Shown one piece after another: positions 56-53,848 of a DNA stretch of 54,344 nt; within the stretch, counting starts at the first letter, position 1; every line of letters begins with the position of its first letter. Source of the stretch: an uncultured Synergistales bacterium (GTDB lineage Bacteria; Synergistota; Synergistia; Synergistales; Aminobacteriaceae). The stretch lies in assembly GCA_905235735.1 (NCBI GenBank), contig CAJOMU010000015.1, forward strand, positions 1 through 54,344. Reading direction: 5' to 3'. A model generated the notes under the pieces. The model was not told where the DNA came from. It was given only the letters and a program-made list of their open reading frames with translations, and ran no database searches. The translations under genes were made by a program, and so were the position numbers.

Positions 56-1822
56 ATGAAAGCGTATATCAAAGCAATAGAATATTATCTGCCCGAAATC
101 ACAGAAGAAAACACTAATGCGAGACTTCGGAAGAAAACAGGAATTGAACGAAGGCATATATGTCCGCCGAATATGACAGCAGGAGATATGGCCGCTATTG
201 CCGCTGAAAAATTATTTGAACATGGCCTCGATCGTTCATCAATAGATTTTCTGCTTCTATGCACACAATCGCCGGATTATTATCTTCCTACAACTGCATG
301 TATTCTTCAGGACAGATTGAAACTCAGTAAGAATTGCGGTGCTCTTGATTTCAATTTAGGCTGTTCGGGCTTCATTTATGGTCTCGGACTAGCAAAAGGT
401 CTTATCGAATCCGGGCAGTGCAGGAACGTTCTCCTTCTGACCTCTGAGACATACAGTAAGTATATTAACCCCGAAGACAACTCGACAAAAAATTTGTTCG
501 GTGATGCTGCTTCTGCTGTACTTGTCTCCGCTGTTGATACGGATAAATCTGGTCTCTATGGATTCGTTTACGGCACTGACGGAAGCGGTGCAGGAGATTT
601 AATCGTTCCTGTTGGAGGCAGCAGAAACAGTTACATGAACACTGAGACAGAAACATTCAGGGATTCATACGGAAATGTCAGAAGGAACAGAGATTTATAC
701 ATGAACGGTCAGAACATAATGAACTTCGCACTTGATACAGTTCCGTCGACCGTAAATAAAATTCTCGCAGATTCATCATTAGGCAGGCAGGACATAAACT
801 ATTACATTTTTCATCAGGCGAACAATTTAATTCTTGATTCACTCAGAGACAAATGCGGACTTCAGGAAATGCCCTACTGGGAGGACATAAAAGAATACGG
901 CAACACTGTATCAAGTTCACTTCCAATAGCGGCAGAAGATATGCTTTCACTGAAACATTACAGCAGTGCAAGACGCGTAATGATGATTGGGTTCGGTGTA
1001 GGTCTTTCATGGGGAGGATGCATAGCGGATATGAGTTTCATTGCGGGCAGGAAATTTTCTGAGAGGGACAAAACGAAAGAGTATCTCAGAATTGAAGGTG
1101 ATTCAGTTATCCTTGAAGAGATACGACCTGAATACTTCCCCTGCGTAATAAACTGGCGGAATGACGGGGAGCTTAACAGATTCATCAATCAGCCTTATGA
1201 ACTCACATATGAATCAGAATCTCAATGGTACGAGAATATATATCTCAGAGATAACACTCAGGGATTCATGATTATGATAGATAAGGAAAGCATGAAGCCT
1301 TTTGCTACTCTCGGATGGACAGATTTCGACTGTGAAAAGAAGCAGTGTATTCTTGGCCGTCTTATGCTCAGTGATTCAGGTTATGCCAGTGCACTCATGG
1401 AGGGAAATATCCTGCTGTCAGATTATCTCTATGAGTTCGTTGATGTCATGTACGCTCACGTAGGAATACATAACAGAAAGGCACTCAGATGGGATTTCAT
1501 GATGGGATTCGAGAAGCATTCAGGTGAATGGGAATATCCTTCTGAGGCACTCGTGAATAACGTAGAACAATGCGAAATTTTCAGGACAGCAGAGAAGCAT
1601 TACGAGACTAGGAAATTGCTTACGACAGCTAAGATAAAATCAGTAGAATATATGATGACAGAAAACAAAACCGTTTCTACAATCGAAACACGAAACACGA
1701 AACACGAAACACGAAACACGAAACACGAAACACGAAACACGAAACACGAACACGAAACACGAAACACGAAACACGAAACACGAAACACGAAACACGAAAC
1801 ACGAAACACGAAACACGAATAA
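56..1822 (+). CDS. 3-oxoacyl-ACP synthase III (FabH-like) fused to a GNAT acetyltransferase
   Basis: The first ~335 residues are a KAS III fold. The catalytic Cys lies in NLGCSGFIYGL, the His in FHQAN and the Asn in YGNTVSSS. FabH-type enzymes condense an acyl-CoA or acyl-ACP with malonyl-ACP, or act as acyltransferases in surface-glycan clusters. From about residue 345 to 520 a GNAT-like domain follows (WRNDGELNRFINQ, later IHNRKALRWDFMMGF), resembling the amino-sugar N-acetyltransferases of the PseH group. The last ~45 residues are an artificial-looking repeat of ETRNTKH encoded by a 7-base array. A GTG at 35 is in frame, but ATG 56 has an AAAGGAAAG sequence about 10 bases upstream and is preferred. 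It heads a cassette with FkbH, ACP and methyltransferase genes. The fusion and the tail are both unusual; the substrate is not known. Confidence 0.85.
   Translation: MKAYIKAIEYYLPEITEENTNARLRKKTGIERRHICPPNMTAGDMAAIAAEKLFEHGLDRSSIDFLLLCTQSPDYYLPTTACILQDRLKLSKNCGALDFNLGCSGFIYGLGLAKGLIESGQCRNVLLLTSETYSKYINPEDNSTKNLFGDAASAVLVSAVDTDKSGLYGFVYGTDGSGAGDLIVPVGGSRNSYMNTETETFRDSYGNVRRNRDLYMNGQNIMNFALDTVPSTVNKILADSSLGRQDINYYIFHQANNLILDSLRDKCGLQEMPYWEDIKEYGNTVSSSLPIAAEDMLSLKHYSSARRVMMIGFGVGLSWGGCIADMSFIAGRKFSERDKTKEYLRIEGDSVILEEIRPEYFPCVINWRNDGELNRFINQPYELTYESESQWYENIYLRDNTQGFMIMIDKESMKPFATLGWTDFDCEKKQCILGRLMLSDSGYASALMEGNILLSDYLYEFVDVMYAHVGIHNRKALRWDFMMGFEKHSGEWEYPSEALVNNVEQCEIFRTAEKHYETRKLLTTAKIKSVEYMMTENKTVSTIETRNTKHETRNTKHETRNTKHEHETRNTKHETRNTKHETRNTKHE
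1684..1819 (+). repeat. Heptanucleotide array (CGAAACA)n at the 3' end of the KAS III-GNAT gene
   Basis: Nine perfect CGAAACA units (1684-1746), one 6-base variant CGAACA (1747-1752), nine more perfect units (1753-1815) and a partial CGAA that runs into the TAA stop. Because 7 is not a multiple of 3, every forward frame through the array reads the same seven-residue cycle and stays open. Unit number therefore decides only which frame is used after the array. As sequenced, the stop is at 1820-1822, 100 bases before the next ATG. Loss of one unit would move the stop to 1920-1922, touching the next ATG at 1923. Gain of one would move it to 1933-1935, overlapping that gene. Confidence 0.95.
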
Positions 1823-1922
1823 TCTATGCTTTAATAAGAGTATTATATACAGACAAATTATTCCTTGTTCATATCTTTTGGGCAGGGAATTTTTACATGC
1901 TTCTTCACTGGAGGCGGCGTAA

Positions 1923-3704
1923 ATGTTCACGATAAAGTACCCGTTCGACAATGATGAAATTTTACGCAGGCAAAAATCACTCAGACGCAGACTTCTTGAA
2001 CGCGATAGCATATCATATATCACTAAACGAATTGCCGTTCTCGGAGGCTCAACCGTAACTGACATTAAGAACATTCTTGAGATATTTCTGCTCAATGACG
2101 GAATCAAACCAGAGTTCTACGAATCAGAATACAATAAATTCTATGAGGATGCTGTGTTCGGAAATCCTGAACTTGATAGATTCAATCCTGAGATAATAAT
2201 CATATTCACGAGCATAGCTAATATATTGAACGTTCCTGCAGTTAATGATTCATCTGATGAAATAGAAGCAAAACTTGAGAATGAATTCATGAGATTCAAA
2301 AACGTCTGGGAAAATCTTTCACGCAAATTTTCAGCCGTGATAATCCAGAATAATTTTGACTTCCCTCCCTCACAGCCGGAAGGTAACTTTGATGCAGTGT
2401 ATCCTAATGGGCTTGAACACTTCATGAATGTCCTGAACAGGAAATTTTCGGAGTATGCAGCCTCACACAGAGGATTCTATATACATGACATAAATAGATT
2501 ATCCGCAGAAACAGGACTTGAACGATGGCACAAACGCTCTCAGTTTTATTCATACAAATTCGCACTTAACTATGACGTGTTTCCTAATGCTGCATGGAAC
2601 TTGAAGAAAATTATCTGTGCAGTACTTGGCCGCACTAAGAAATGTCTTGTTCTCGATCTCGATAATACATTGTGGGGTGGTGTTATCGGTGAGGATGGAC
2701 TTAACGGAATATCAATCGGGAATGAAACTCCTTTGGGTGAATCATACACTGACTTTCAGAAATACGTTAAGCGTCTTAAAGAACGTGGCGTTATTCTTGC
2801 TGTATGTTCAAAGAATGACAATGATGTTGCGGAACTGGGCTTTACTCATCCTGACAGCGTGTTGAAACTCGAAGACTTTGCCGCTTTTCATGCTAACTGG
2901 AATACCAAGAACATAAACATCAGACAGATAGCACATGAACTTAATATCGGACTGGACAGTCTGGTGTTCATTGATGACAACCCTGCAGAAAGAGAAATTG
3001 TACGGCGTGATATTCCGGAAGTAAGCGTGCCGGATTTCGATCCCGAAGACATATTCACATGCATAAAGGCAATCGAGGATAACGGATATTTTGAGACAGC
3101 AGCAATCTCTGAAGATGACATAAAGCGCAGTGATACATACAGGCAGAATAAACAGCGTCATGAACTCGAAGAAAGCTCAGGGAATTATGATGAGTTTCTG
3201 AAGTCTCTCGAAATGGAAGCAGAAATCTCACCGTTCAGAGAGATATATTTTGACAGGATAACTCAGCTCACGAATAAAACCAATCAGTTTAATCTCACGA
3301 CAAAACGCTATACCCTCGCTGAGATTAAGAGTGCATCAGAAAGTCCTGAACACATTACGCTGTACTGCAGGCTTAAGGATAAATTCGGAGATAACGGGAT
3401 CATATCACTGGTTATAGGAGAGATTCACGGCGATAACTTGAAGATTATTCTGTGGCTGATGAGCTGCAGAGTTCTCAAACGCGGAGTTGAAGATTTGATG
3501 CTCGACTGCATTGTTCGAGAGGCCAGGAAGAGAGGGTGCATAAAACTCACAGGAATATATATCAGAACAAAAAAGAATTCAATGGTTGAGAGCTTATATA
3601 AGGATTTCGGGTTCTCTTTGCTCAGTTCGGAAGATGATCATACTGAGTGGGAGCTTGAGCTGAATAATTACGAGAATAGAAATACATTCATAAGAGAGGA
3701 GTGA
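1923..3704 (+). CDS. FkbH-like HAD-IIIC family protein
   Basis: A 593-residue protein with an N-terminal SGNH/flavodoxin-like part (~1-230), then a HAD subfamily IIIC domain with motif I at VLDLDNTLWGGVIGEDG and a later FIDDNPAEREIV motif, and a C-terminal acetyltransferase-like part (~430-590). FkbH proteins take 1,3-bisphosphoglycerate and load a dephosphorylated glyceryl unit onto an acyl carrier protein; some relatives act on other three-carbon units. The ACP gene at 5058 is the likely partner. The ribosome binding site GGAGG lies 8 bases before the ATG. The stop overlaps the region upstream of the VOC gene. Domain assignment is firm; the glyceryl-ACP role is inferred from family and neighbours. 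Confidence 0.88.
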   Translation: MFTIKYPFDNDEILRRQKSLRRRLLERDSISYITKRIAVLGGSTVTDIKNILEIFLLNDGIKPEFYESEYNKFYEDAVFGNPELDRFNPEIIIIFTSIANILNVPAVNDSSDEIEAKLENEFMRFKNVWENLSRKFSAVIIQNNFDFPPSQPEGNFDAVYPNGLEHFMNVLNRKFSEYAASHRGFYIHDINRLSAETGLERWHKRSQFYSYKFALNYDVFPNAAWNLKKIICAVLGRTKKCLVLDLDNTLWGGVIGEDGLNGISIGNETPLGESYTDFQKYVKRLKERGVILAVCSKNDNDVAELGFTHPDSVLKLEDFAAFHANWNTKNINIRQIAHELNIGLDSLVFIDDNPAEREIVRRDIPEVSVPDFDPEDIFTCIKAIEDNGYFETAAISEDDIKRSDTYRQNKQRHELEESSGNYDEFLKSLEMEAEISPFREIYFDRITQLTNKTNQFNLTTKRYTLAEIKSASESPEHITLYCRLKDKFGDNGIISLVIGEIHGDNLKIILWLMSCRVLKRGVEDLMLDCIVREARKRGCIKLTGIYIRTKKNSMVESLYKDFGFSLLSSEDDHTEWELELNNYENRNTFIREE

Positions 3705-3709
3705 TTGTC

Positions 3710-4133
3710 TTGAAGGTTCATCATGTAGGTTATCTCGTTGCAGATATGAACAATGCGCTGAAAGAATTTCTGAATCTCGGCTATGAGATTGAACAGGAAG
3801 TTATGTATGACCCTGTCAGGAACATCAATATATGTTTCATACGCAATAACGGCTTTCTCATTGAGCTTATATCACCATGTGAAGGCTGTAAATTATTTTC
3901 GGGTCTGGCCAGAAGAATCGGGAATGCTCCTTATCATATATGTTATGTAATTAATACAACTGGGGGGGGGGGTAACGTTTAACGAGCAAATTGCGATGCT
4001 TGAAGAGAAAGGATATATGCTCGTGAAGATGCCTGAAGCAGCACCTGCACTTGAAAACAAAAAAGTTGCATTCATGATGAATGATGCAATTGGTCTGATT
4101 GAGATACTTGAAGGAGGAAAAAATGACAAATGA
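3710..4133 (+). CDS. VOC (glyoxalase-fold) family protein, frame broken at a G11 tract (OFF)
   Basis: The 5' part reads MKVHHVGYLVADMNNALKEF and on to YHICYVINTT, a vicinal-oxygen-chelate protein of the methylmalonyl-CoA epimerase-like group. In the current frame it stops at 3980-3982, just after eleven Gs. The rest of the fold (VTFNEQIAMLEEKGY to IGLIEILEGG) continues in another frame and ends with TGA at 4131-4133. Deleting one G joins the two into a 140-residue protein of normal family length. The start is probably TTG 3710, with AGAGGAG 8 bases upstream; GTG 3701 is also in frame but lies on top of the ribosome binding site. The downstream methyltransferase starts inside its last codons. 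Reaction unknown; VOC partners of FkbH/ACP systems may isomerise or process the ACP-bound unit. Confidence 0.75.
3962..3972 (+). repeat. G11 homopolymer tract inside the VOC gene
   Basis: Eleven consecutive G between ACT and TAACG. The reading frame of the VOC fold changes exactly here; G10 (or G13) would join the two halves. Confidence 0.9.
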
Positions 4134-5027
4134 ACTTGAAGAATTTCTGAAGATCATCTGTGAAAAGAATCAGTTGCACGGAAAATATTTGAAGAAATTC
4201 ATTCCATCGTTATCAGATTATGAACTGTATGGACTTCACAGGCTGATACGTTTTTATCAGTCTCTTGGGAACTCTGTGAATGACATTGCCGATTGCTATT
4301 TGCTATTCATACAGGTTGTTATGGAAGAGACGAAGTATTTTGCAGAGCACGGGACATACAGATACAGTACGTTTAACGAAGTCAGTAACGATGTTTATTT
4401 CAATGACAGCTACATGACGAAATACATGGTAGGTCTGGGGCTTTCAACGTACCTTCTGAATTTTCATCTTGAGAGCATGAGATTCTATGATGAATTCATA
4501 CGCGGTGTTAAAGGTATCCGTTATCTTGAAATAGGGCCTGGACACGGAGAATATTTCGTTAAGGCTCTCGAACTTTCAGGGCTGAAATTCTTTCATGCAG
4601 TTGACCTCTCGAAAACGTGTGTAGATATGACGAGTAAATATACGCATTTTTGCTGTATTGGGAGAGGGGGGGGCAAAATTACTTAGTGATAGAGCAAAGA
4701 GATTTTTTCAGCTTTGTGCCTGAAGAGAAATATGACGTTATTGTCATGGGAGAAGTTCTTGAACACGTTGAGAGGCCGGTTGATTTTCTGCGTCAGATGT
4801 TGAGATGTTCTCATAAAGATACATTGAGCTATGTTACAACGGTTATAGATGCTCCTGAACGTGATCATATATACCATTTTCATACGCCGCAGGAAGTTTT
4901 TGATACGGTTGAATCTGCCGGTCTCAAAGTGAAAGACTACAGGCTGATCACTCATAACGATAAGCCAGTTGAAAAAGTTATGAAGCTGCATCAGCCGATA
5001 CTTGCCGCAATGATTCTTACGGTATAA
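4123..5027 (+). CDS. SAM-dependent methyltransferase, frame broken at a G8 tract (OFF)
   Basis: The start ATG 4123 has a strong AAGGAGG about 6 bases upstream. The N-terminal ~125 residues are helical and specific to this family. The SAM-binding motif I is YLEIGPGHGEYF, followed by an acidic strand end in HAVDLSK. The frame then stops at 4684-4686 after eight Gs. The remaining Rossmann part (FFSFVPEEKYDVIVMGEVLEH, then HIYHFHTPQEVF) lies in the next frame and ends at 5027. One extra G gives a continuous protein of 301 residues. In the cassette it could O-methylate the ACP-bound acyl group or the target sugar; this is inference. As written only a 187-residue fragment lacking the acceptor half would be made. 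Confidence 0.82.
4666..4673 (+). repeat. G8 tract inside the first methyltransferase gene
   Basis: Eight G between AGA and CAAAAT, at the frame change between the SAM-binding half and the rest of the methyltransferase. G9 (or G6) restores a single frame. Confidence 0.9.
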
Positions 5028-5057
5028 GACTATAAATATGCAAGGAGGAATGTTATT

Positions 5058-5309
5058 GTGAAACTGGAAGAAGTTATGAATGAACTTCAGCCTATATTCC
5101 GTGAAGTATTTGACGATGATTCTATAGTGCTGACCAATGAAACAAATGCAGAAAATATTGAAGACTGGGATTCTCTTTCACACATACGGTTAATCGTAGC
5201 GATTGAGAAAAAGTTCGGAATCAAGTTTGCCTATGATGAGCTTCAGAACATGAAGAATGTCGGAGAGGCAGCTGAAATCATAAACCGTAAGCTGAGTGAA
5301 AAAGAATGA
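5058..5309 (+). CDS. Acyl carrier protein
   Basis: An 83-residue acidic protein with the phosphopantetheine attachment serine in EDWDSLSHIRL. Length and charge fit the ACP family. It starts with GTG, with AAGGAGG about 9 bases upstream, and its stop overlaps the next gene's ATG by four bases, so translation is probably coupled. This is a dedicated ACP placed among FkbH, KAS III, GNAT and methyltransferase genes rather than the fatty-acid ACP next to fabF. It likely carries the small acyl (glyceryl-type) group made by the FkbH protein. Confidence 0.9.
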   Translation: MKLEEVMNELQPIFREVFDDDSIVLTNETNAENIEDWDSLSHIRLIVAIEKKFGIKFAYDELQNMKNVGEAAEIINRKLSEKE

Positions 5310-5905
5310 GCAGTAATTTTCGTTTCGATGCAGTGCAGGAGTACAGGCACAAAGAGATTAACGGAGTATGCATTGATCTCGTACCTTTTGAAATGAAGTA
5401 TGCAGAAGAATTCGTGAGTATGCGGAATTCTGAACGCAATAAATACTTCTTCAATCAACAGGTTAATCTCACTGTCGAGAGTCAAAAAGTATGGTACGAA
5501 AAGTATCTGAGCAGACCTGACGATATATTCTGGGCAATCTTGAATAAACGAGGAAAATTCATAGGCACAACAAGACTGTATGATATTGCACCTGATGGTT
5601 CGATTCTTGAGCAGGGAAGTTTCATGATTGATGAAAGAGTCGCTAAAGAAGCACCATATGCAATTGAGGCTAACATAATGTGTCTGGATTTTGCGTTTGA
5701 TGTCCTCAAGGTGAAAGAGATAATCAACAGAGACAGGAATGACAACAAGGTCATGAATAACCTATCGAGAAAATTCGGATTCAGATTCATTCGTGATACT
5801 GAGGTTAATGGTGTACCGTACAGATACTGCCTCTGCAATCATGAGGATTATATGTCCGTGCGTGATGATATATATTCGCTGATCAAATACTGGTCTGAAC
5901 GCTGA
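5306..5905 (+). CDS. GNAT family N-acetyltransferase
   Basis: A 199-residue GNAT protein. VPFEMKYAEEFVSMRNSE, then a 'W..I' segment (FWAILNKRGKFIGTTRLYDI) and a late NRDRNDNKVMNNLSRKFGF acceptor/CoA region follow the order seen in amino-sugar N-acetyltransferases such as PseH. It overlaps the ACP stop by four bases, so an acyl-ACP rather than acetyl-CoA could be the donor, as in other ACP-coupled GNATs. That donor choice is inference. Together with the GNAT domain of the first gene, the cassette holds two GNAT modules. Confidence 0.82.
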   Translation: MSSNFRFDAVQEYRHKEINGVCIDLVPFEMKYAEEFVSMRNSERNKYFFNQQVNLTVESQKVWYEKYLSRPDDIFWAILNKRGKFIGTTRLYDIAPDGSILEQGSFMIDERVAKEAPYAIEANIMCLDFAFDVLKVKEIINRDRNDNKVMNNLSRKFGFRFIRDTEVNGVPYRYCLCNHEDYMSVRDDIYSLIKYWSER

Positions 5906-5929
5906 TATTTCAAGAGGAGAATTAGAAGC

Positions 5930-6654
5930 ATGTTAAGCAAAGAACGTAAAAGGGTAACAGAAATAGCAAGAAGTGCAGGTTACTCTGAAGGTGTCATGTA
6001 TCACACAACGAGATACTGCGGTGAAATTTTCATGCGCTACATGAATTCAGGTAGTGTTCTTGAACTTGGCCCTGCGGAAGGATTGATGACTGATGTACTT
6101 TTTCCGAAGTTCAGTGATGATTACACTGTAGTTGACGGAGCAGATTTCTTCGTTGAGTCTGCAAAGGAACGTCATCCCGGCATTAAGGGAGAAGCAAGCC
6201 TCTTTGAAGATTACAGACCAGGAAGAAAATTCGACAACATTATTCTTGGCCATGTCCTTGAACACGTAGAAGACCCCGTTGGAATTCTGAAGCTATGTTC
6301 AACATGGATGCGTAATAATTGTGTCAGGGGGGGGTAATACTTGCCGCAGTTCCAAACAGAGACAGCTTGCATCGTCAGGCAGCCGTGAAAATGGGTATGC
6401 TTGAACGGGTTGATTCTCTCAATGCTTCGGACATAAAGAACGGACACAGGAGAGTGTATAACTTTTCTGGATTGAAGAGGGATTTTGAGAGTGCAGGACT
6501 TAGGATAATACAGTCAGGAGGATATTGGCTGAAGACATTATCGAATGCACAGATAAATGAGTTCTACACAGTTGAAATGATAAATGCGTTTCTGAAACTC
6601 GGAGAAGAATATCCCGAAATTGCCGGTGAGATTTACGTTGTGGCCGGTGTGTAA
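5930..6654 (+). CDS. Class I SAM-dependent methyltransferase, frame broken at a G8 tract (OFF)
   Basis: Starts at ATG 5930 after an AGAGGAGAA ribosome binding site. SAM motif I is VLELGPAEGLMTDV, an acidic residue follows in VVDGADFF, and FDNIILGHVLEHVEDP is the typical motif II region. The frame ends at 6335-6337 straight after eight Gs. The remaining strands (VILAAVPNRDSLHRQ to EIYVVAGV) are in the next frame, ending at 6654. One extra G gives one protein of 241 residues, a normal size. It is a different methyltransferase from the one at 4123, so the cassette has two independently switchable methylation steps. The target is unknown; an O-methylated acyl group or sugar is a reasonable guess. 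Confidence 0.82.
6327..6334 (+). repeat. G8 tract inside the second methyltransferase gene
   Basis: Eight G between GTCA and TAATAC at the frame change of the methyltransferase. G9 restores the frame. Confidence 0.88.
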
Positions 6655-6665
6655 ATGAATCAAAA

Positions 6666-6700
6666 TGCCGCAGAACGTTATATTGTCCTGCGGTTATCTT
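6666..6700. terminator. Hairpin between convergent genes
   Basis: CCGCAG (6668-6673) pairs with CTGCGG (6688-6693) and is followed by TTATCTT. It sits between the end of the acyl cassette and the end of the minus-strand gene at 6678, whose stop codon lies in the loop. Confidence 0.55.
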
Positions 6701-7007
6701 CTCGTTTCAATGCTGCCTCTTCAATTAGGCGCGTCTGTTCTTCACGGTGCTCTATGTTCTGACGTTCAAGAATTTCCTTGCGCTGTGCAATCTGTCTGAG
6801 CTTTTGAGACTTCGATACCATGTCATTATGTCTGTCCCATGCCTGCATCGTCGTCCTGTTCAAACTTAATTTCGCAGCTTCGTACAGTTCAAGTGCCTCT
6901 TCCTGCGTCTCTGGAATTCTCCTCTCTCGCTTCCATTCAGAAGAGTCAGGCAGTTCATCCCATATGCTCCCCAATCTGTATTGTGTGCTGACCGATGTAC
7001 TTCTCAC
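6678..7007 (-). CDS. Unknown small charged, probably coiled-coil protein
   Basis: No family recognised. The open frame gives up to 109 residues, but the first part overlaps the TSCPD gene; a TTG at 6974 would start at LGSIWDELPD and reduce the overlap to 20 bases. The body is rich in Glu, Arg, Gln and Leu with a helical pattern (EEALELYEAAKLSLNR, then QRKEILERQNIEHREEQ). No signal peptide or membrane segment. It is last in the minus-strand operon with coaX and dus. Confidence 0.6.
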   Translation of the reverse strand: MRSTSVSTQYRLGSIWDELPDSSEWKRERRIPETQEEALELYEAAKLSLNRTTMQAWDRHNDMVSKSQKLRQIAQRKEILERQNIEHREEQTRLIEEAALKREDNRRTI

Positions 7008-7248
7008 TTAATGCCTCCTCTATCGCTATCGATAACTGATCCGCACATGACGTTCCTCTTGTGCCGCACTTATTTCCCTTCAGTATCGTTGCTATCGTTC
7101 CTGCATCTGCCCCCTCAATTAATTTTGAGATTGCAGACAAATTTCCTGGACAGCCTCCCGAAAATTTTACGCTGTACATCTTCCCGTCTTCTATATCAAA
7201 CGTTATCCTCTTCGCGCATACATCCTTAGTTGTGTATTCTACCCTCAT
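6955..7248 (-). CDS. TIGR03905-type TSCPD domain protein
   Basis: A 97-residue protein with a Cys-rich TSCPD-like core: FSGGCPGNLSAISKLIEG, then LKGNKCGTRGTSCADQLS. The TSCPD module also occurs at the C-terminus of some ribonucleotide reductases; the stand-alone family has no proven role and may bind metal. It starts 4 bases after the dus stop and overlaps the following unknown gene. Confidence 0.8.
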   Translation of the reverse strand: MRVEYTTKDVCAKRITFDIEDGKMYSVKFSGGCPGNLSAISKLIEGADAGTIATILKGNKCGTRGTSCADQLSIAIEEALSEKYIGQHTIQIGEHMG

Positions 7249-7251
7249 ATC

Positions 7252-8187
7252 TCAGTTCATTACTCCTTCCCGTAATACGTTTCTTAATTCTTCAAGACTT
7301 CCTGACATCATTGCACGTCTCCTTAGTTCCGCTGAACCTTCAGTGTATCTTAACATGCTTCCCGCAAATCTCTTCAGTAATACAACAGCTTTGTGTTCTC
7401 CAGAAACTTCAAGTGTACGTTGTGAGAATTTCAGCAGTGATTCAAGTTTTGATTCGTTTGTCCTGTATGTCCCGTTGAACTCCTCGAACAAAAACGGATT
7501 CGATATTGCTCCCCTCGCTAACATCACCATAATACTGCCGTATGATAAGTATTCGTTGATGTCTTCTATCGTCTTTACATCTCCACTCGCACTTATGTAA
7601 CCCTTAAACCTCTTTGAAGATTCAGCAATTACACTTCTGTCCGCTATCCCCTCGTAACGCTGTGAAGGTGTCCGGCCATGTATGCATACGTTATCCGCTC
7701 CTGCTCTCAATAACGCTTCTATGAATCTCAACGTGTTATTGTTATCGTCATCCAGTCTCCGTATCTTTACCCACACAGGTAGACCAAGCGACTTTAACCC
7801 CGAAACCATTCGTGATGCCTTAACTGAATCTTTCAGCAATGCAGAACCTGAACCGTTACGCGTTATCTTCGGCATTGGACAGGCCATGTTAATCCCGAAT
7901 GCAGAGAATTTATTCCCGAACTTCAATACACATTCTGCACCAGAGACTAAAACCTTATCGTCATTCGCGAAGAGTTGAATCACTAACGGTGCTTCATGTT
8001 CTGATACTTTCATCATGTCATACGTCTTCGCATTGTCCCGAATCAATCCCGCACAGCTTATCATCTCCGTGTGTGTCAGTGCCGCTCCCAATGACGAGAA
8101 AAATTCACGAACTGTTATTGTAGTAACGCCTGCCATTGGTGCAAGACATAAACGATTCTTGAGAGTTAAACCTCCGATTGTAATCAT
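7252..8187 (-). CDS. dus: tRNA-dihydrouridine synthase (Dus family)
   Basis: A 311-residue FMN enzyme that reduces uridines in tRNA. Visible features are the N-terminal LAPMAGVT FMN-binding start, the catalytic Cys in NMACPMPKITRNGSGSALL and the phosphate-binding CIHGRTPSQRYEG region. Length fits DusB-like proteins. Its start overlaps the coaX stop by four bases, so the two are co-translated. DusB is the best guess for the subfamily. Confidence 0.9.
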   Translation of the reverse strand: MITIGGLTLKNRLCLAPMAGVTTITVREFFSSLGAALTHTEMISCAGLIRDNAKTYDMMKVSEHEAPLVIQLFANDDKVLVSGAECVLKFGNKFSAFGINMACPMPKITRNGSGSALLKDSVKASRMVSGLKSLGLPVWVKIRRLDDDNNNTLRFIEALLRAGADNVCIHGRTPSQRYEGIADRSVIAESSKRFKGYISASGDVKTIEDINEYLSYGSIMVMLARGAISNPFLFEEFNGTYRTNESKLESLLKFSQRTLEVSGEHKAVVLLKRFAGSMLRYTEGSAELRRRAMMSGSLEELRNVLREGVMN

Positions 8188-8951
8188 GAATTCACTCGCT
8201 CATATATCATCTTTAAGCCTTCAAGCGTAAGCCACTTATCTACATACTGAATGTTCCTTGAGACTTTCGCCATTAATCCTGCATGGCCTCCCGTCGCTAC
8301 AACCTTTGCGTCTTTCATTCCGTCTTCATTCCGAATCATGTCTATGATATGGTCAGTCAGTCCTGCATTCCCGAATAGTATTCCTGATTGTATCGCTTCC
8401 TCCGTGTTTCGTCCTATCACACTTTCTGGGATATTCAGTGCAACTTGAGGAAGTTTCGCCGCCTTTGAGAACAATGCAGATATTCCAGAGTTCAGACCTG
8501 GTGCTATTACTCCTCCGAGATAATCGCCGTCCTTCGATACTACATCGAATGTTATTGCTGTACCATAATCCGCAACAATCACAGGTGCTCCATACTTCTC
8601 ACGTCCTGCAAGTGCATTCACTATTCTGTCTGCTCCTACTTCATGAGGATTCTTCGTGAGTATCTTCATTCCCGTATCCGTTGATGCGTTCACCTGAAGA
8701 GGATTTACACCGAAGTATTGCCTTATCGCTTCCTTCATCGGGAAGTCGAGTGAAGGCACTACACTCGCAAATGCTGCACCTGTTATCTTATCCGGCGTAA
8801 TATTCTTCGTGCTTAGAAGATTCAGAAAGTATATTCCGAGTTCATCTGATGTGTGAAGTATCGATGAAAGTCTCCAATGTGCAATCAATTCTTCTCCGTC
8901 ATAAATACCTGTTACTGTTGTCGTGTTCCCTGTGTCGATTACTAAAAGCAT
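8184..8951 (-). CDS. coaX: Type III pantothenate kinase
   Basis: A 255-residue ASKHA-fold kinase for the first step of coenzyme A synthesis. The N-terminal phosphate loop is MLLVIDTGNTTTVTGIYDGE, followed by HEVGADRIVNALAG with the family GxDR-like motif, and VADYGTAITFDVV with the acidic catalytic region. The start codon directly follows the stop of the FAD oxidoreductase gene, and it overlaps dus downstream. Confidence 0.93.
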   Translation of the reverse strand: MLLVIDTGNTTTVTGIYDGEELIAHWRLSSILHTSDELGIYFLNLLSTKNITPDKITGAAFASVVPSLDFPMKEAIRQYFGVNPLQVNASTDTGMKILTKNPHEVGADRIVNALAGREKYGAPVIVADYGTAITFDVVSKDGDYLGGVIAPGLNSGISALFSKAAKLPQVALNIPESVIGRNTEEAIQSGILFGNAGLTDHIIDMIRNEDGMKDAKVVATGGHAGLMAKVSRNIQYVDKWLTLEGLKMIYERVNS

Positions 8952-13542: not shown

Positions 13543-13584
13543 TTTGGGAGCATTAAATATTTCAATGAGAGGAGTAGTTGACAG

Positions 13585-14660
13585 GTGAATGATAATAACG
13601 GTATAATCGACCAACGACCAACGACCAACGACCAACGACCAACGACCAACGACCAACGACCAACGACCCGATACATGTCGCTTTAGCAGTATATGATCCA
13701 ACAGGGACGTATTCACAGCATGCCGGAGTAACAATCACATCAATATTCGAGAATACGAAGAGCAAAGTTATAGTTCATCTTCTTCATGACGATACACTCA
13801 CCGAAGACAACAAACGGAAATTCATACGTACAGCAGAAAAATACAATCAGACAATAGAACTTGTTGATGTTACGAATCAATTTGAGTTCAGCCGCAATAT
13901 CGAAAAAATGCAAGATACATACAGAGTAACTATAGGAACTTACTATAGGCTTCTGCTTCCCGATCTGTTACCGAAAATGTCAAAGGTTTTATATTTCGAC
14001 TGCGACATAATTTTTGATCTTGATGTTCAAGAGTTATGGAATGTTGATGTAAAAGATTACTGTATGGCAGGAGCCCTTGATATGAATCTCGTACGTTATA
14101 ACAACGGAGCTGATGAATTTGTACGAGATTTCCTGATGGGATGTAATTTTCATACGTATGTTAATGCAGGTGTGCTCGTTATGAATCTAAACATGATTCG
14201 CAAGAGAGGTAATTTGTTTCAAGATGCTATGAACTGGCTGAACACCCATGTGCATCTTATGCAGCTCAGCGACCAAGATATAATTAACTGCCTGTTCTAC
14301 AAGTCCATCAAAATAATCGACCATAGGTTCAATAATATGTGTCCGATAATAGAGCAGGAAACATTGAATAGCATAATACATGCATCAGGCTTCAATAGGG
14401 CTTGGGAGATAACTGGTATGCCGTATCAAAAAATGTATTGGAAGACGTATCTCATCAGTGAATGGGGCAGAAATAAGTCCCCCGAAGAAGTTATTGACGC
14501 AATCACGTCATATGCACCCAAAAGAACAATCAGCAAAAAACTTCCTCTGTATAAGCGCATCTTGTTAAAAATCCAAACGAGAAAATCAATCAAAATAATC
14601 ACGTACATATCGAAATATGTTTTTTACAAACTCAAATACACCATCAGTTCCCCTTGCTAA
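13585..14660 (+). CDS. GT8 family glycosyltransferase, frame broken by a heptamer array (OFF)
   Basis: The 3' frame, open from just after the array, encodes HVALAVYDPTGTYSQHAGVT, then KVLYFDCDIIFDLDV (the DxD metal/nucleotide-sugar site) and AGALDMN. This is a LgtC/RfaJ-like GT8 enzyme that adds a hexose to lipooligosaccharide or similar glycan. The first ATG in that frame is at 13908, far inside the fold. The real start is GTG 13585, with GAGAGGAG about 11 bases upstream; its first codons (MNDNNGI) fit a family N-terminus. From there the frame runs through the 7-base array and stops at TAG 13684. One more unit, or two fewer, joins start and body into 360 or 353 residues. As sequenced, only a 33-residue peptide would be made. 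It stands alone between two terminators. Confidence 0.85.
13608..13668 (+). repeat. Heptanucleotide array (CGACCAA)8 in the N-terminal coding part of the GT8 gene
   Basis: Eight perfect 7-base units from 13608 to 13663 plus a partial unit. It lies between the ribosome binding site/GTG start and the conserved first strand of the glycosyltransferase. All frames through the array are open and read the same cycle of seven residues, so unit number acts as a clean three-state frame selector. Confidence 0.95.
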
Positions 14661-28546: not shown

Positions 28547-28576
28547 ATACTAACACCCCCCCCCCTAAAAAGTCAA
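28547..28576 (-). promoter_or_regulatory. Promoter with a G10 spacer tract, giant surface protein
   Basis: Read on the minus strand: TTGACT (28576-28571), then TTTTA, ten G (28565-28556), TGT, then TAGTAT (28552-28547). The spacer to TAGTAT is 18 bases and would be the optimal 17 with G9. An alternative -10, TATAAC (28545-28540), would give 25 bases. The start codon is about 63 bases downstream. The layout equals known phase-variable promoters in which a homopolymer sets -35/-10 spacing. Confidence 0.6.
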
Positions 28577-46353: not shown

Positions 46354-46829
46354 ATGAATTCAAGCGATGATAAAATACGTAATATTACTCTAGTGGGGGG
46401 GGGGGCAGTAGTGCTCAATCCCTGCGTGAAAGGTGTCCTGTCATAAATTTCAAATGGCTTGGAGATGAGCGCGGAAAACTCGTAGTCATTGAGGGCGGCA
46501 TTACAATTCCGTTTGAGATTAAGAGAGTGTTCTACATTTACGATTCAGACAGAGACGTTATACGAGGCAGGCACGCAAACAGAATTTCAGATTTCGTTCT
46601 TGTGAATGTAGCAGGACAAAGCAAAGTGAGATTAACTGACGGACATGAAGAATTTGTTACGGAACTCAACAGGCCGATGATGGGTGTATATATTCCTCCA
46701 ATGGTTTGGAAAGATATGTACGATTTCTCAGAGGATTCGGTTCTTCTCGTACTCGCAAGCACGCATTACGATAACAGCGAATACATTCGTGATTATGACG
46801 AGTATTTACGACTCATGAATGAAAGATAG
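46354..46829 (+). CDS. FdtA/QdtA-type dTDP-sugar 3,4-ketoisomerase, frame broken at a G11 tract (OFF)
   Basis: The start ATG 46354 has AAAGG upstream and encodes NSSDDKIRNITLV before eleven Gs. In that frame the product ends at 46444-46446 after 30 residues. The cupin body (INFKWLGDERGKLVVIEG, FEIKRVFYIYDSD, GRHANR, IPPMVWKDMYDF) is in the next frame and has no good start of its own. One more G gives a continuous 158-residue protein. FdtA/QdtA isomerise dTDP-4-keto-6-deoxyglucose to the 3-keto form on the way to Fuc3NAc or Qui3NAc in surface glycans. No aminotransferase or acetyltransferase partner lies next to it. It stands between the GH13 fusion gene and a terminator. Confidence 0.83.
46395..46405 (+). 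repeat. G11 tract in the N-terminal coding part of the FdtA gene
   Basis: Eleven G between CTAGT and CAGTAG, between the start codon and the cupin fold. G12 (or G9) joins the frames. Confidence 0.88.
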
Positions 46830-53816: not shown

Positions 53817-53848
53817 TTGACTTTTGCCCCCCCCCCCTGTAGTAGAAT
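53817..53848 (+). promoter_or_regulatory. Promoter with a C11 spacer tract, DUF697-like gene
   Basis: TTGACT (53817-53822), TTTG, eleven C (53827-53837), TGTAG, TAGAAT (53843-53848). The spacer to TAGAAT is 20 bases; C8 would give 17. The alternative -10 TAGTAG (53840) gives 17 now. Same layout as the promoter at 28547-28576. Confidence 0.6.

Follow-up and report, generated by a model that had tools for sequence, protein, structure and literature searches.

The DNA examined here, a stretch of 54,344 nucleotides ('the window') that forms the start of contig C15 in the 2.1 Mb genome of an uncultured gut bacterium of the Synergistales (G000), seems to begin partway into an operon, carrying its downstream half; this operon probably decorates one surface sugar. 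It would acylate a dTDP-3-amino-3,6-dideoxyhexose destined for a surface glycan and would be phase variable, with polyG tracts as switches and heptamer repeats as frame selectors between its modules. We hold this overall reading with somewhat more confidence than doubt. It draws on gene content, active-site residues, the pairing of two contigs, tract positions, selection and a frame pattern at seven gene boundaries, and from these we infer the substrates, products, acyl group, methylation, transfer, target and every switching event.

Seven genes are packed on the forward strand at positions 56-6654. The ORF lists, together with Pfam and NCBIfam searches, confirm the proposal of an initial annotation that KAS III, FkbH, ACP, GNAT and methyltransferase genes share one operon, and they add a VOC gene that it had not named. 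The first ORF (56-1822) is a KAS III-GNAT fusion. Its KAS III part (about 56-1045) matches ACP_syn_III and has Cys103, His253 and Asn283; the C-terminal part of the ORF is without a Pfam match, and a GNAT-like part at about 1090-1620 was recognized by inspection. The counterpart of this second part is a separate gene in a sister species (G034), in which KAS III and the GNAT-like protein are encoded at 6615-7625 and 7628-8314 of the corresponding locus (L016). At the end of the ORF lies an array of 19.6 copies of CGAAACA (1684-1819), followed by a 12-bp hairpin and a short T run that together resemble a terminator (1860-1890), 32 nt upstream of the FkbH start. FkbH itself (1923-3704) is an HAD-IIIC protein with a GNAT-fold C-terminal domain. 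Beyond it come the VOC gene (3701-4133, with its Glyoxalase_4/VOC match on 3701-3982), the SAM methyltransferase gene MT1 (4123-5027, domain on 4650-5027), which has a homologue in Campylobacterales pse loci, and the acyl carrier protein ACP2 (5058-5309), a PP-binding protein with the Ser of its DSL motif at residue 39. The last two genes are a GNAT acyltransferase (GNAT2, 5306-5905), which matches PF13302 but no named family in NCBIfam and is predicted to carry an acyl group from ACP2 to a sugar nucleotide, and a second SAM methyltransferase, MT2 (5930-6654, domain on 5930-6337). An Rfam search of the window gave only a single tRNA, and a scan of the window with a degenerate hairpin pattern gave no match.

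Contig C15 ends before the KAS III gene, and the remainder of the genome was searched with the neighbours of the same genes in the sister species, where they stand at the matching place. The ketoreductase and FdtA of that species match contig C10 at 71% and 84% identity, with the ketoreductase at the contig end and FdtA further in, a spacing that resembles that of the sister species. The gene set on C10 comprises a GT2 glycosyltransferase, FdtA, FdtB, a 3N-formyltransferase, a GNAT, a second ACP (ACP1) and the ketoreductase, with ilvC beyond. In another genome (G032), about 2 kb separates ilvC from dusB and the cassette has no match, an arrangement that supports both the neighbourhood of C10 and C15 and the variable presence of the operon at this site. 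Judged by these matches, the operon is continued upstream of the window on C10, and its upstream neighbours are sugar-nucleotide genes, as the initial annotation expected, rather than members of an unrelated pathway.

The C10 genes also point to the sugar. The best solved matches of the 3N-formyltransferase are TDP-3-aminoquinovose N-formyltransferases, that of FdtB is QdtB and that of FdtA is a dTDP-6-deoxy-3,4-keto-hexulose isomerase. With RmlB also present in the genome, four members of the dTDP-Fuc3N/Qui3N pathway are found here: an FdtA/QdtA isomerase, an FdtB/QdtB aminotransferase, a 3N-formyltransferase and RmlB. This gene set makes a dTDP-3-amino-3,6-dideoxyhexose (Fuc3N or Qui3N) the most likely sugar. 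A second FdtA-like gene lies in the window at 46354-46829, with a G11 tract (46395-46405) near its 5' end. Pseudaminic acid, the sugar of the Campylobacter comparison, is not borne out, since PseI (TIGR03586) has no match in this genome or in three relatives (G034, G025 and G005) and genes of FdtA/FdtB type are present instead.

The decorated sugar could be destined for flagellin, so that the operon would still be a flagellin-glycan block in function. Six flagellin genes are present in the genome, the homologous block of Campylobacterales adjoins PseB and PseC, and di-O-methylglyceric acid is known on the pseudaminic acid of Campylobacter jejuni flagellin (PMC3068675). On the other hand, neither C10 nor C15 carries a flagellin match, PseI was not found, and lipopolysaccharide is an equally possible target. 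Flagellin is thus a possible destination, though we are inclined to doubt it.

The central enzyme of the window is FkbH, which matches TIGR01686 at 306 bits against a cut-off of 147. Eight of its residues (Asp245, Asp247, Thr249, Ser296, Lys329, Asp351, Asp352 and Cys515) do not vary among 26 homologues, and an alignment shows the same HAD residues and Cys515 to be common to Streptomyces methoxymalonyl-type and Campylobacterales proteins. Cys515 is the conserved Cys of the C-terminal SCR motif. The active site, on which the earlier proposal of glyceryl loading depended, is therefore intact. A structure model (pLDDT 85) matches BF1531 in a fold search, and GNAT-fold enzymes over shorter stretches. 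FkbH is accordingly a predicted loader of a glyceryl-type group onto ACP2; relatives of FkbH are able to load other three-carbon units. A literature search on FkbH with O-antigen or glyceric acid found no paper on acylation of surface sugars. The VOC protein has a candidate ligand pattern H/E/H/E that aligns with its homologues, and methylmalonyl-CoA epimerase is among the weak PDB matches of a Campylobacterales relative; a C2 epimerase of the acyl thioester is a possible role.

How the acyl-carrier genes are grouped is suggested by 80 related FkbH loci, where an ACP accompanies FkbH in 74, an MBOAT in 64 and a VOC in 11, and a KAS III was matched in none. By these partner counts the operon reads as two modules, one of ACP1, ketoreductase and KAS III-GNAT and one of FkbH, VOC, MT1, ACP2, GNAT and MT2. 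The genes might instead form a single pathway in which KAS III condenses the FkbH product, glyceryl-ACP, giving the sugar an acyl group that is longer and either branched or tetronate-like. In tetronate clusters KAS III uses glyceryl-ACP in just such a condensation; a Streptomyces plasmid cluster has KAS III, FkbH and ACP next to one another, and KAS III adjoins FkbH both here in the window and in six loci of Campylobacterales. This pathway is nevertheless unlikely, as the FkbH module occurs without KAS III, both in the 80 related loci and in a Campylobacterales locus of FdtA/FdtB type (L159). The array and hairpin also come between KAS III and FkbH in the window, and a ketoreductase and second ACP lie on the KAS III side. 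The two-module arrangement is used below.

Tracts of G divide three genes of the FkbH module into two reading frames each: G11 in VOC (3962-3972), G8 in MT1 (4666-4673) and G8 in MT2 (6327-6334), all three out of frame as assembled. A change in tract length would alter the frame, judging by the frames that flank the tracts and likewise by those after the heptamer arrays. Long G/C runs are far above chance: six of at least 8 occur in the 54 kb window where first-order Markov sequences have a mean of 0.10, and four of at least 9 where 60 simulations gave none. Two further long C tracts occur in the window at 28556-28565, between two divergent ORFs, and at 53827-53837. The initial annotation, which placed G tracts in three genes and a heptamer array in a fourth, was right about their presence, but the array lies in the 3' tail of the ORF, past the conserved part. 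Its length therefore leaves the enzyme uninterrupted, and the idea that it switches KAS III at the coding level was rejected.

The split genes could simply be decaying pseudogenes or the result of homopolymer errors, with the heptamer arrays as neutral minisatellites. The assembly has all three of these genes out of frame, a state that sequencing or assembly error could produce, and the sister species has stretches of N behind its VOC tract and behind the G tract of a polysaccharide pyruvyl transferase gene (13037-13049 of L016), a gene that takes the place of MT2 in the window. However, the sister species has tracts in the same two genes, VOC (G12) and MT1 (G10), and in a Campylobacterales locus (L158) MT2 is in frame with a 12-base tract at the codons corresponding to the G8 of the window. 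Selection also appears similar on the two sides of the tracts. Between the window genome and the sister species, pN/pS is 0.26 before the tract and 0.32-0.35 after it in VOC, and 0.21 and 0.17 on either side in MT1, compared with 0.20-0.24 in FkbH, ACP2, GNAT2, KAS III and ketoreductase, all of these being rough figures with synonymous sites near saturation. The parts past the tracts thus seem similarly constrained, as would be expected of genes that are used when in frame. With the frame pattern at all seven array boundaries, described next, also against it, decay or error is a very unlikely account, and the tracts are better read as putative switches.

Six gene boundaries, three of the window genome and three of the sister species, carry heptamer arrays of differing units; at equivalent places the sister species has other units. 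The units contain little or no T and leave all frames open, a property shared by about 69% of random heptamers; the CGAAACA unit ahead of FkbH is T-free and open in all three frames. At all six boundaries one frame stops 0-29 nt past the array, before the hairpin, and the other two pass the hairpin to reach or go beyond the next start codon, so that the frame would set whether a ribosome stops before or after the hairpin, as in attenuation or translational coupling. At a seventh boundary, in a further genome (G025), one frame stops at once and two reach or enter the next gene; a hairpin like those of the other six was not identified there. Shuffling the leaders one by one leaves two frames open across the hairpin at a rate of 1.4-21% (0.014-0.21). 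The six boundaries are three homologous pairs and do not count as independent; if each pair is represented by its larger value, a cautious joint probability comes to about 9e-4, for a statistic that was chosen after viewing the sequences. The fold z-scores of the leaders are -4.4 (that ahead of FkbH), -3.9, -2.2, -2.7, -2.3 and -0.5, five of the six being below -2; scans of the array regions as a whole with terminator patterns gave no excess over shuffles. It is therefore conceivable, and we put it forward tentatively and with a little more doubt than belief, that the 3'-tail arrays are frame-selecting attenuators, in which slippage of a T-free repeat would switch the whole downstream module, superimposed on the polyG switching of single genes.

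Heptamer arrays are also found elsewhere in the genome, in the 5' coding part of several glycosyltransferase-like genes. In the window, a GT8-like glycosyltransferase gene (13578-14660) has 8.7 copies of CGACCAA in its 5' coding part and is, as assembled, out of frame with an upstream GTG start. By inspection, contigs C4, C5 and C7 (L213, L214, L216, L217 and L220) have arrays at the 5' ends of glycosyltransferase-like genes, one of them (L216) with a stretch of N within its array.

These genes bear on a different role for the arrays, in transcription initiation. A sigma-70-like -35/-10 pair lies 0-3 nt ahead of each array, scoring 9-12 of 12 before every operon array with enough upstream sequence, and a score of at least 9 has a chance of 0.0073 at a random position. 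In several glycosyltransferase-like genes, however, the promoter-like stretch overlaps the Shine-Dalgarno sequence, the start codon and the first codons, and the arrays are coding. A promoter role also leaves unexplained both the T-free or T-poor units that are open in all frames and the pattern of frames after them. It is an improbable explanation, and frame selection is retained as the working proposal.

The operon as a whole probably works as follows. GT2, FdtA, FdtB and the 3N-formyltransferase would make and transfer the dTDP-3-amino-3,6-dideoxyhexose. In the first module, ACP1, the ketoreductase and KAS III-GNAT would provide a short 3-hydroxyacyl-ACP. In the second, FkbH would put a glyceryl-type group on ACP2. 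VOC may fix the configuration of this group at C2, its O-methylation would fall to MT1 and MT2, and GNAT would move it from ACP2 to the sugar nucleotide; the G tracts in VOC, MT1 and MT2 would allow these tailoring steps to be switched separately. The copy number of the array modulo 3 would determine whether ribosomes stop before the leader and hairpin or traverse them to the next start codon, and this reach would alter the expression of the next module.

The initial annotation had likened the gene set to one in the flagellar glycosylation locus of Campylobacter jejuni, and 399 Campylobacterales genomes were searched and the regions around the matches compared by tblastn. In six loci (L151-L156), homologous ACP, MT1 (36-43% identity), FkbH and KAS III genes are clustered downstream of a PseC-type aminotransferase, and VOC lies between MT1 and FkbH in three of the six (L152, L155 and L156). 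The genes upstream in L154 score above cut-off as PseB and PseC equivalogs, and an AAC(3)-like gene lies upstream of ACP. From their content we take these loci to be of the Campylobacter Cj1293-Cj1304 type, with the block presumably being Cj1298-Cj1304; a literature search for the locus tags Cj1298-Cj1303 found nothing. The likeness thus holds for ACP, MT1, FkbH and KAS III but does not extend to GNAT, which was not matched in any of the six loci, L154 having the AAC(3)-like gene instead.

Two further Campylobacterales loci (L158 and L159) have FkbH, ACP, VOC, MT2 and a related formyltransferase together with many G tracts, and L159 has FdtA and FdtB in addition. The C-terminal part of the window MT2 is 58-59% identical to MT2 of these two loci. 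KAS III was not found in either by the search used for the other loci, and MT1 gave only a weak cross-match in L159. Four other Campylobacterales FkbH-ACP loci (L146-L149) have G/C tracts and an MBOAT gene, two of them (L146 and L147) with MT1.

A homologous block of FkbH, KAS III, VOC and methyltransferase genes thus occurs in two phyla on different sugars, which suggests a portable acyl-decoration module for surface sugars and offers testable roles for Campylobacter genes of disputed function. If the arrays are indeed frame selectors, one repeat array could switch a downstream group of genes rather than a single gene; we know of no example of a repeat array used in this way.

The operon resembles several known systems in part. 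It has in one place all three genes of the dTDP-3-amino-3,6-dideoxyhexose pathway (FdtA/QdtA, FdtB/QdtB and the QdtF-type N-formyltransferase), but adds to them two acyl-ACP modules and phase-variation repeats. With the methoxymalonyl-ACP cassette (fkbG-K type, as on a Streptomyces canus plasmid, L167) it shares the FkbH HAD residues, the invariant Cys and a close ACP. The Streptomyces methoxymalonyl-type FkbH adjoins ACP and dehydrogenases, whereas the operon here is without an acyl-CoA or hydroxyacyl-CoA dehydrogenase and has GNAT, VOC and sugar-nucleotide genes. In FkbH-ACP-MBOAT loci, which occur among gut Firmicutes and elsewhere, FkbH is mostly 46-58% identical to that of the window, with an ACP nearby and sometimes a VOC or MT1, but an MBOAT membrane acyltransferase stands where the operon has GNATs, and FdtA/FdtB matches occur in only a few. 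The Campylobacter flagellin-glycan block has the same tandem genes on one strand, a neighbouring ACP and G tracts nearby. Its gene order is mirrored relative to the window operon, and it adjoins a PseC-type aminotransferase (PseB and PseC in L154) in place of FdtA/FdtB; the order in L158 and L159 differs from that of the window as well. Finally, polyG contingency tracts are familiar from Campylobacter and heptamer repeats from the hmw genes of Haemophilus influenzae, and both polyG in coding sequence and heptamers in 5' coding parts are found here. In contrast to those contingency genes, the operon arrays lie in the 3' tails of genes, upstream of a leader and of the gene block that follows.
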